Source: Bacteroidales bacterium (GTDB taxonomy: Bacteria; Bacteroidota; Bacteroidia; Bacteroidales; Marinilabiliaceae). From it: a DNA stretch of 46,897 bases. A program made the position numbers and the translations under genes. Shown in pieces: positions 4,146 to 8,720 of this stretch; positions within the stretch are counted from its first letter, which is position 1, and the number at the start of each line of letters is the position of its first letter. The stretch covers positions 1 to 46,897 of the forward strand of contig JAKSBD010000372.1 of the NCBI GenBank assembly GCA_022361295.1, given 5' to 3'. The notes beneath the pieces were generated by a model. It made no database searches, had not been told where the DNA came from, and worked only from the letters and a program-made list of their open reading frames with translations.

Positions 4146-4442
4146 AATTTCTTCAAAACAGAGGTGTATCCCTCAAAAATAAACCGATTCAATTATCTCA
4201 AAATAGAGGGCCCAAAGATGTCATTTTTTTTGATCTCTTAATGTTTATTTGATATTTAATTAAGGTTTTTTTAACATGTTACTACTCATTTTAGAATTGG
4301 TCTAATTAACAGTTCAATAGAGTGTGGTAATATTTTCCAATTAGAGTTAAAAACATACCAAATTGAACCTCCGACTACCTTCGCAATGCACCTGGTATAT
4401 TTTCTTTGTAAATTAACACATTGCGTCAGAAAATACTCTTAT
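4146..4442. other. Divergent intergenic region
   Basis: About 300 bases between the minus-strand phosphate symporter and the plus-strand GH92 gene, so it should hold both promoters. It is AT-rich. I see the tentative minus-strand -7 element at 4174-4181 and a plus-strand TTTCTTTG at 4401-4408 (7 of 8 to TAnnTTTG) without a convincing -33 partner. No RNA gene or clear operator was seen. Confidence 0.4.
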
Positions 4443-6695
4443 ATGAAAAACATTACAATTCTATTTTTCGCATTTCTGCTTTCTGTTTTGCTTTCATGTA
4501 GCACTAAAACACCACAAACTGCAGAAAGATTGACATCGTATGTTAATCCGTTTATGGGAACAGATGGACCAGGTAATACATACCCCGGAGCTACTGTTCC
4601 ATTTGGAATGGTGCAGCTAAGTCCAGACCACGGTATCGGGGGGTGGGATCGTATAGCAGGCTACTTTTATCCCGATACAATTATAACGGGTTTTAGCCAC
4701 ATGCACTTAACCGGTACCGGAGCAGGTGATTTATACGACATCCTTGTTAGCCCAATTAACTCTAAAGCCACCAAGACTATAGCAGAAAATGGACATCGAC
4801 CATACAGCACATTCTCACATGATAATGAGCATGCTGAGCCGGGATATTACCAGGTATACCTGCAGGATTATGATATTAATGCGGAATTGACTACCACCAA
4901 AAGAACGGGAATACATCAGTAAACATTTCCGAAAGATGAAAATTCAGGCTTTATAATTGATTTAGGATATGCCCTGAATTGGGACGCTCCAACTGATACA
5001 TATCTTAAAATTGTTGATGATACAACTATTGAAGGGTATCGTTTCTCAACCGGTTGGGCAAAAGATCAACGCGTTTTTTTTACTGCTAAATTCTCAAAAC
5101 CATTTGAAACCACTGAGCTTTTTGCTGATAATAAACCATCTGAAGCAAGTTCAGTAACAAATAAAAACACAAAAGTAATAGTCCGGTTTTCTACAAGTAA
5201 TAATGAAAAAATACTGGTCAAAGTTGGTTTCTCAACGGCCTCAAATATCGGTTCAAAAAAGAGTCTTGAACTTGAAGCCAAACACGATGATTTTAACGCT
5301 TATCGAAAAGCTGCCTCAGATGTTTGGGAGAATAAATTATCTAAAATTAAAATTGAAACCGATAATAACACCTGGAAAAAAACTTTTTACACCACTCTTT
5401 ACCAGTCGATGCTGGCACCAACCTTATTGAGTGATACTGATGGCAGATATAAAGGTGCAGATGGTGAATATCACGTGGCCAATGATTACGACAAATACGA
5501 TACATTTTCATTATGGGATACGTTTAGAGCAGCGCATCCTCTTTACACTATTATGCATCCCGACAAGGTTAAAGATTTTGTCAGCAGCATGATTAGCCAT
5601 TATGAGCAGACAGGATTATCACCCGTATGGTCAATGCAGGGCAACGAAACAGATATGATGATTGGTTATCATGCAGTCCCTGTTATCGTCGATGCCTATT
5701 TTAAAGGCTTATTAAATGATTTTGATCCTGAACTGTTATATGCAGCCTGCAAGTCAAACGCCATGGATGATGCTCACGGTATAAAAGAATACCGCGAAAT
5801 GGGTTATGTGCCTGTTTCTTATGACCACGAAAACTGGTCAGTTTCAAAAACTGTTGAATATGCCTATGACGATTGGTGCATCGCACAACTTGCTAAAGCA
5901 TTAAATAAGAATGATGATTATAACTACTTTATGCAACGAGCCGGTAATTGGCAAAATCATTACGATAGTGAGTCTTCATTTTTACGCCCTAAAAAGGCCA
6001 ATGGCGAGTTTCTGGAAGGCTTTGTCGCAAAAGACTATACCGATCACTTTTGCGAAAGTAATGCCTGGCATTACTTCTGGTTTGTACCTCATAATATACA
6101 GGGACTAATAGATAAAACAGGTGGGTATAACCGTTTTGAAGAAAAGCTGGACAGTATGTTTACTTATCATCCTAAAGAGGAGGATGATTTACCAATTTTC
6201 AGTACGGGTATGATTGGTCAATATGCGCATGGTAATGAACCTAGCCATCATGTGGCCTACTTATACAACTATTTAGGCAAACCATGGAAGACACAGGAAC
6301 GTGTCAGGGAAATTTTAGAAACTCAGTATGCACCCGTTCCTAATGGTCATTGCGGTAACGAAGACTGTGGTCAAATGTCGTCCTGGTATATTTTTAGTTC
6401 AATGGGATTCTACCCGGTAAATCCGGCAGATGGTATTTATGTAATTGGAACACCATTGTGGAAAAAAGCCAGTATTAAACTCCCTGATGGCAAAACATTT
6501 GAAATATCAGCCAATAATGCATCGAGTTCAAACAAGTATATAAAGAGCGTAAAATTAAATGGTAAGCCTTTAAACAGGACTTATATTTATCATCACGAGA
6601 TAAGTGCAGGAGGAATTCTGGAGTTTGAAATGTCAGATAGCAAGAATAAACAATTGTGGAACGACAGCACTGGTTTTCCACCATCAAATCCATAA
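4443..6695 (+). pseudogene. GH92 alpha-mannosidase lipoprotein, interrupted by one in-frame TAA
   Basis: Glycoside hydrolase family 92 exo-alpha-mannosidase, which trims alpha-linked mannose from glycans. Start chosen at ATG 4443 because it gives a clean lipoprotein signal (lipobox VLLSC); the ORF track start at 4386 adds a poor leader. N-terminal domain motifs: YVNPFMGTDGPGNTYPGA, GFSHMHLTGTGAGDLYD. The frame hits TAA at 4920-4922 (codon 160), where the family usually has Tyr (RTGIHQ-stop-TFPK). The same frame then continues without another stop or frameshift to 6695, giving 750 codons in all, the normal family length. The C-terminal (alpha/alpha)6 domain keeps its motifs: WSMQGNETDMMIGYHA, YAHGNEPSHH, HCGNEDCGQMSSWYIFSSMGFYPVNP. 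A Tyr TAT or TAC to TAA change explains everything. It is a very recent pseudogene or an assembly error; readthrough is less likely. Confidence 0.88.
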
Positions 6696-6868: not shown

Positions 6869-6948
6869 AGTTTACTGGTTTTGTAATTAATTCTCAGTTT
6901 CTAGTACTATTCCAACTCCCGATTCATTCCTCTAGACGTAACATATCG

Positions 6949-6978
6949 CTTAAGGTTGCGTTTGTCAAGAGGAAAATT
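6949..6978 (-). promoter_or_regulatory. Promoter-like element for the minus-strand small ORF
   Basis: Read on the minus strand, CTTGACAAACGCAACCTTAAGCGATATGTTACG contains TTGACA, a 17-base spacer and TATGTT. It can also be read as the Bacteroidota form CTTG-N20-TATGTTAC (6 of 8 in the -7 box). Coordinates are approximate. Confidence 0.4.
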
Positions 6979-7049
6979 ACTTTTCAACTATCTTTTGCAA
7001 TTATAACGATTTGATTTTCTTTTTATTATACAAATAAATATTTTTTATT

Positions 7050-7080
7050 TTTGAATTTAAGAGTAAATTCTCTTTATTTG
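7050..7080 (+). promoter_or_regulatory. Bacteroidota-type promoter of the metY leader
   Basis: TTTG at 7050-7053, a 19-base spacer, then TTTATTTG at 7073-7080 (7 of 8 to TAnnTTTG). Spacing and sequence fit the Bacteroidota housekeeping consensus. The expected transcription start falls only a few bases before the leader ATG at 7087, so the leader peptide would be nearly leaderless. Confidence 0.65.
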
Positions 7081-7086
7081 TACTCA

Positions 7087-7188
7087 ATGAAAGAGCAATT
7101 ATTTCATATTACTTCTATCGTATTAATAGCTGACAAGGCTATTAATATCTCTTCACATATGATGATGTGTATGATGATGACGCGCTAA
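7087..7188 (+). CDS. Methionine-rich leader peptide upstream of metY
   Basis: A 33-codon ORF too short for the ORF track, starting ATG at 7087 and ending TAA at 7186-7188. The product ends in SSHMMMCMMMTR: six Met codons in a seven-codon window. The next full gene, 110 bases downstream, encodes a methionine-biosynthesis enzyme, and a good promoter sits immediately upstream. This is the classic arrangement of an amino-acid-sensing leader peptide, in which ribosomes slow at Met codons when charged Met-tRNA is scarce and alter RNA folding or downstream translation. The Met run and position are seen directly; the regulatory role is inferred. I see no T-tailed terminator between it and metY, so control may act on translation or through another kind of stop signal. 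Confidence 0.7.
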   Translation: MKEQLFHITSIVLIADKAINISSHMMMCMMMTR

Positions 7189-7278
7189 GTGTCACAACGC
7201 ATCGTATCTGAAAATCAAACAAAAAAACAGTACAGACCGGTGCGTTTAGCACGGGTAGAGGTTAAAGAAGAACATTAA
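7189..7278 (+). other. In-frame continuation ORF after the leader stop
   Basis: Directly after the leader TAA, the same frame stays open for 29 more codons (GTG at 7189 to TAA at 7276-7278). The encoded peptide would be hydrophilic and basic, ending RPVRLARVEVKEEH. It could be a second leader ORF translated by restart, a former C-terminal half of the leader, or a by-product of RNA structure constraints. No independent start signal supports it. Confidence 0.3.
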
Positions 7279-7280
7279 CC
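7236..7280 (+). promoter_or_regulatory. Putative regulatory hairpins between leader ORF and metY
   Basis: Two short hairpins: ACC-G-GTGC / GCAC-G-GGT (7236-7256, loop GTTTA, one G-G mismatch) and GGTTAA / TTAACC (7260-7280, 9-base loop) ending 17 bases before the metY ATG. The 3' side of the first (TTTAGCAC, 7245-7252) can instead pair with GCGCTAAG at the leader stop (7182-7189), giving mutually exclusive folds. Not a terminator by sequence, because no T-run follows. Confidence 0.4.
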
Positions 7281-7291
7281 ATAAAAACTAA

Positions 7292-8593
<1,302 letters not shown>

Positions 8594-8608
8594 ATTATTT
8601 CAATATTT

Positions 8609-8644
8609 CAAACCATCTGATTAGCCAGTACATTGGATGGTTTG
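8609..8644 (+). terminator. Hairpin after metY, possible attenuating terminator
   Basis: CAAACCATC (8609-8617) pairs perfectly with GATGGTTTG (8636-8644) across an 18-base loop, followed by TATTTTCC. It overlaps the -33 side of the likely hom promoter. The modest T tail makes full termination uncertain. Confidence 0.45.
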
Positions 8645-8662
8645 TATTTTCCTTTACTTTTG
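8632..8662 (+). promoter_or_regulatory. Promoter for homoserine dehydrogenase gene
   Basis: A perfect -7 box TACTTTTG at 8655-8662 (consensus TAnnTTTG), with ATTG at 8632-8635 (3 of 4 to TTTG) 19 bases upstream. The coding start is at 8721. Confidence 0.5.
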
Positions 8663-8720
8663 TAGAGCAAAACAAAATAACCACTATCAGGCTTTTTAAG
8701 ACTTGATAAAAAAGACAACC

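Follow-up and report, generated by a model that had tools for sequence, protein, structure and literature searches.

A methionine-codon leader ORF before metY in Marinilabiliaceae: a probable leader-peptide attenuator with candidate counterparts across Bacteroidota

How might a bacterium sense methionine at a methionine gene that bears no sign of a riboswitch? The regulators generally credited with methionine control in bacteria are SAM riboswitches, MetJ/MetR, and Met T-boxes. The question is raised by a 46,897-nucleotide contig of a Bacteroidales bacterium of the Marinilabiliaceae (assembly GCA_022361295.1, JAKSBD010000372.1), the whole of which is referred to here as the window. It carries metY on the forward strand at 7298-8593, the presumed regulated gene, whose product, an O-acetylhomoserine sulfhydrylase/homocysteine synthase, matches TIGR01326 at 680 bits (cut-off 495), with cystathionine gamma-synthase models giving weaker matches. 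Some enzymes of the MetY family serve homocysteine as well as cysteine synthesis, as the title of TIGR01326 also indicates. No Rfam family was found in the window at gathering score and none between 6900 and 7400 at E<=5, so that metY here shows no sign of a SAM riboswitch, as an earlier note made from the sequence alone had claimed; nor did any Rfam T-box model match the window or the 6900-7400 interval. The only SAM riboswitch found in the organism's own genome precedes an aspartokinase gene (G000:C84:14-111, L179), an arrangement also present at L181-L185 of the same genus. In the genus, the SAM signal is thus used at the entry of the pathway, while metY has a leader peptide.

The leader is a 33-codon ORF on the forward strand at 7087-7188, with metY following 109 bases downstream. 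The ORF list starts this frame at an upstream TTG at 7051; read from the ATG at 7087, it comprises 33 codons plus TAA and encodes MKEQLFHITSIVLIADKAINISSHMMMCMMMTR*, ending in MMMCMMMTR. The run ATGATGATG TGT ATGATGATG (7159-7179) consists of Met codons at 7159-7167 and 7171-7179 with a Cys codon, TGT, between them, making six Met codons in seven, and its positions 7162-7170 are termed region 1 below. The short ORF with its methionine run in front of metY is therefore as the earlier note had described it. The run is unique in the 46.9 kb window for at least five Met in seven codons, counting both strands and all frames, and runs of this density were absent from 60 dinucleotide-shuffled copies of it. 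Elsewhere in the same genome, sequences resembling the Met run were rejected because they fall within genes in a different frame or lack a met gene as neighbour. No convincing NCBIfam or Pfam family was found for the peptide and its relatives.

Ahead of the ORF lies a putative promoter (7050-7080, forward strand), in which TTTG (7050-7053) is followed by a 19-base spacer and TTTATTTG (7073-7080). A promoter-like element, as claimed by the earlier note, is thus present, with one mismatch to the consensus TAnnTTTG. Six bases separate the end of this element from the leader ATG, and in 16 of 18 relatives it stands 6-13 bases ahead of the start codon. Since the element lies so close to the start codon and the genus retains this arrangement, the leader mRNA is predicted to be leaderless or nearly so. 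The promoter spacer also holds an imperfect inverted repeat, AAGAG-TAAATT-CTCTT (7059-7075), retained in many Carboxylicivirga genomes and absent in L319, L322, and L325; it is a possible repressor operator.

The closest named relative is Carboxylicivirga sp. A043, whose MetY is 95% identical. When searched with a covariance model built on the leader region, 14/14 genomes of the genus Carboxylicivirga yield exactly one match apiece, each time before metY. The earlier note had looked to relatives for a conserved short ORF with clustered ATG codons, and would have given up its reading had close relatives lacked the run or the ORF; all 14 genomes have both. Conservation is concentrated in the last ten or so residues, which are near-invariant in the genus (MMMCMMMT, with MMYMMMT in one and TMMCMMMT in two), the first 24 residues being variable. 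The ORF of relatives is 33-37 codons long, and its frame is open in 18/18 of them, as against 0/18 and 2/18 for frames +1 and +2. Runs in sister genera stay Met-rich, reading MMWNMMM (L011), MMDMMCMM (L012), and MMDMMCRMMM (L013), with MMCRMMMM in Plebeiobacterium (L026), MMCCMMM in Labilibacter (L031), and MMMGRMSM in Thermophagus and Marinilabilia (L025, L027). In 295 genomes of the order, a covariance-model search placed the window-type leader in the family alone and also led to L175, a locus of another family discussed below; two weak matches away from metY (L176, L177) look like chance. In the genus genomes, no Met leader was found before metA, and a convincing metX was not found.

The leader RNA is predicted to form a hairpin around the stop codon and three competing pairings, between the Met codons and region 2 (1:2), between regions 2 and 3 (2:3), and between regions 3 and 4 (3:4), with compensatory changes. 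The stop-codon hairpin, TGACGC-GCTAA-GTGTCA (7178-7194), encloses the TAA at 7186-7188; 90% of its cells are paired, and two of its pairs have changed on both sides, C-G to A-U in six sequences and U-A to C-G in two. Region 2 (7196-7210), made up of AACGCATCG (7196-7204) and TCTG (7207-7210), may pair with either region 1 or region 3. In most members of the window's group its ACGCATCGT is complementary to the Met codons ATGATGTGT, giving helix 1:2, and its GCAT core lies 9-11 bases past the leader stop codon in 17/17 loci, a constancy that would be expected if the edge of the ribosome matters. Region 3 (7233-7246) consists of CAGA (7233-7236) and CGGTGCGTT (7238-7246). The core of helix 2:3 is 98-99% paired across 16-21 sequences, with both-side changes at three pairs, and shifting the partner by one to three bases abolishes it. 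Helix 3:4 (7236-7256), ACCGGTGC-GTTTA-GCACGGGT, is the least uniform of the helices, with 71% of cells paired; both-side changes occur at three pairs, one of them G-C to A-U in four sequences. Unprompted, RNAalifold recovers the stop-codon hairpin and helix 2:3. Within the ORF, a further hairpin (TATTAATAGC / GCTATTAATA, 7121-7147) recurs at a similar position, just ahead of the run, in most members of the genus, although its sequence differs almost completely between species; its mean folding z is -2.4 (14 genus members), and it is weak in some, such as L324. One guess is that this candidate pause hairpin holds RNA polymerase until the ribosome catches up.

Taken together, these features make it quite probable that the window leader is a ribosome-dependent leader-peptide attenuator that senses the charging of elongator Met-tRNA and takes Cys as a second input, a reading drawn from comparative sequence analysis. 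The ORF would be translated from a predicted nearly leaderless mRNA. When methionine is short, ribosomes would dwell on the AUG run, a slowing that we infer, covering region 1 and freeing region 2, which could then pair with nascent region 3, blocking hairpin 3:4 so that metY is expressed. When methionine is ample, the ribosome would run on to the stop codon, where its leading edge would just touch region 2; with region 2 hindered, or taken up in 1:2 once the ribosome has departed, 3:4 would form and metY would be turned down. In other lineages, Cys would act as the second input. Which way the control runs is inferred, as is the output step in the window. The earlier note's proposal that methionine is sensed by ribosome stalling is strengthened by the conserved run, by leaders in other families, and by the terminator/antiterminator pairs described below.

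The putative sensor and switch are well supported by comparison, and it is at the output that readings diverge. The window shows clustered codons for the pathway product in a short ORF and the mutually exclusive helices 1:2, 2:3, and 3:4 of an attenuator. No intrinsic terminator or U-tract follows 3:4, either in the window or in any relative of its group; the window leader is therefore not classed with intrinsic-terminator attenuators and would only work like them. Because 3:4 has no U-tract, Rho-type termination in the C-over-G stretch that follows the leader stop (7189-7238; 12 C, 7 G) is considered about equally likely as translational control of metY. Folding calculations are indecisive and do not prove the switch, which would have to be kinetic. 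In the full-length equilibrium fold, 3:4 usually outcompetes 2:3 even with region 1 masked; before region 4 exists, the fold favours 2:3 almost regardless of ribosome position; and masking the ribosome in equilibrium folds failed to tell the states apart. A standard ribosome footprint at the leader stop reaches just the edge of region 2.

Translational attenuation would share the switch and differ in the output step alone, with 3:4 hindering 30S loading on metY, and it is a serious contender that falls somewhat short of an even chance. Consistent with it are the missing U-tract, the spacing of 54-62 bases from region 3 to the metY start in 16/17 loci, and the high conservation of the metY initiation region. 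The predicted openness of that region is, however, nearly constant across ribosome positions, and 3:4, whose end is 41 bases short of the metY ATG, lies beyond the reach of the usual 30S footprint; relatives outside the group, moreover, have transcription terminators. A GGTTAA...TTAACC hairpin that might sequester the metY initiation region was rejected as a general output, since it is confined to one subclade. The probable initiation region itself is an A-rich stretch conserved in the alignment (ACATTAACCATAAAAACTAAAT, 7271-7297, forward strand); the AACATTAACCATAAAAACYAAAT stretch at these positions is also seen elsewhere in other genomes (L014; L016 at about 1501-1525) and may serve Bacteroidota as a strong initiation region for translation. 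Beyond metY, a hairpin and a promoter-like element were seen by eye at 8600-8720, ahead of the following homoserine dehydrogenase gene, so that leader control may be limited to metY. On the other side of the leader, a GH92 glycosidase gene appears split between 4386-4922 (part of the N-terminal domain) and 5409-6695 (catalytic domain), apparently through frameshift, assembly error, or decay.

Outside the window's group, Met/Cys leaders, defined as short ORFs in which Met or Cys take up five or more of eight codons (at least two of them Met) in the 700 bases before metY, occur in 50 of 248 metY upstream regions; the corresponding figures are 3 for the antisense strand and 0.3 for a shuffled set. 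Among the named carriers are Pedobacter segetis, Labilibaculum, and MAGs of Chitinophagaceae, Saprospiraceae, and Flavobacteriales. Most Bacteroidales metY genes have no such leader (10/107 do). Across the leaders, that of the window included, residues and spacing vary freely and the Met/Cys content is kept, as in MMMCMMMTR, GMMMGRMSMA, IMPLMPMCMR, and MCMCCCCMC. At 13 loci, comprising 20 leader-terminator units, an intrinsic terminator lies 20-45 bases past the leader stop. The intrinsic terminator missing from the 3:4 position in the window's group is thus found at L036, L104, L138, L145, L149, L158, L175, and others, the seven named carrying two complete units in tandem. The run and the stretch following it can pair with the 5' arm of the terminator in an antiterminator geometry (mean z -2.3, below -2 in 11/20 units and weak in the other 9/20). 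The clearest case comes from a different family within the window's order: at L175, the units MKLNKNMMMSMMMSKEIYAKDIII and MNSMMMGMMQMMMHIMLLYYPD, each with its terminator, stand before metY; there, MKLNKNMMMSMMMSKEIYAKDIII is followed by AAGCCTTTGCGAGAGCAAGGGCTTTTTT, with ACGCAAAGG of the leader as the candidate antiterminator strand, then by the second unit and metY.

The relation of these leaders to the SAM riboswitch differs with their build. In an Rfam scan, a SAM riboswitch was found at 0/13 terminator-type leader loci and at 20/33 other leader loci (Fisher p 1e-4, uncorrected for relatedness of the loci), and at the scanned loci of the window's group, metY is preceded neither by a SAM riboswitch nor by an intrinsic terminator. 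SAM riboswitch and Met/Cys leader stand together before metY in many Bacteroidota. Loci with a SAM riboswitch and a Met/Cys-rich sORF include L042, L051, L052, L055, L117, L137, L142, and L237, among others; no intrinsic terminator was found after the sORF in these, and two-input control is possible there. The recurrence of Met- and Cys-rich mini-genes before metY suggests that the phylum probably senses methionine by the speed at which ribosomes read the leader run. We lean, by a modest margin, towards a phylum-wide, hitherto unrecognised class of Met/Cys-tRNA attenuators on metY in three builds, namely terminator units, often in tandem, that would replace the SAM riboswitch, leaders placed after the riboswitch, and the terminator-less build of the window.

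Three further explanations concern the sensor itself. The leader peptide might arrest the ribosome as a nascent chain in response to a ligand, for example SAM, in the way that the MTO1 peptide of plant cystathionine gamma-synthase does. The C-terminal position of the run and the relationship of MetY to cystathionine gamma-synthase would suit this explanation, which is nonetheless unlikely given that Met/Cys content alone is kept, with residues and spacing free, and that the first 24 residues are unconserved. Slightly less probable still is that the AUG run acts as an RNA element or, with its many start codons, as an initiation trap rather than as regulatory codons. The Met codons do double as region 1 of helix 1:2, and because Met has a single codon, codon and RNA constraint are inseparable within the genus; relatives, however, keep in-frame Met/Cys richness by differing sequences (ATG, TGT, TGC), and in terminator-type leaders the antiterminator strand comes after the run. 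Copper, which Met/Cys-rich motifs bind, might instead be sensed by a metal-binding nascent leader peptide. PMC9973294 offers a precedent in another system, in which a nascent exported protein senses copper. Copper sensing is the most improbable of the three, as the leader peptide has no signal-sequence-like stretch and the element invariably lies before metY.

If tRNA-charging attenuation is the correct reading, Bacteroidota would monitor tRNA charging in addition to SAM, the end product, and where a leader follows a SAM riboswitch, one mRNA would read both. Methionine, with which every protein also starts, could then be sensed by elongation speed. The metY leaders, with a terminator, with a riboswitch, or alone, form a natural series for studying the exchange of sensors. 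Leader-peptide attenuators are a known kind of control, and strong clues of them have been described before amino-acid operons of Flavobacterium psychrophilum, Met being unnamed in the main text (PMC9723704). Among open full texts, to which the search extended, no earlier description of Met-codon leaders in Bacteroidota was found, and within that limit the Met-codon version in this phylum is apparently undescribed.

The leader shares with the classical attenuators (trp, his, thr, ilv, leu) a short ORF of product codons, helices 1:2, 2:3, and 3:4, and a pathway gene downstream. It differs from them in its Met (and Cys) codons and its predicted near-leaderless ORF and, in the window's group, in having additional hairpins, one within the ORF and one around its stop, and a 3:4 without U-tract. 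The SAM riboswitch RF00162 found before metY in other Bacteroidota likewise subjects the same gene to control by the methionine pool, but it binds SAM directly and is absent at the window metY. Streptomyces lividans has one predicted leader, metL, before metNIQ (PMC8079986); this short ORF is leaderless, as the window leader is predicted to be or nearly so, and it too has Met and Cys close to its end (...ARCMCRRMCAF) and no clear intrinsic terminator. It differs in belonging to Actinobacteria and to a transporter operon, in being a single predicted case, and in having fewer Met codons. The Cys-responsive polycysteine sORFs of mycobacteria (Canestrari 2020, cited in PMC9031893) are leaderless, as is predicted, at least nearly, for the window leader; they resemble it in repeating the codons of a sulphur amino acid, and they attenuate by elongation speed, as it would. 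They read Cys rather than Met and belong to another phylum and other genes; the window run has one Cys among six Met, and Cys-rich versions occur in other Bacteroidota.
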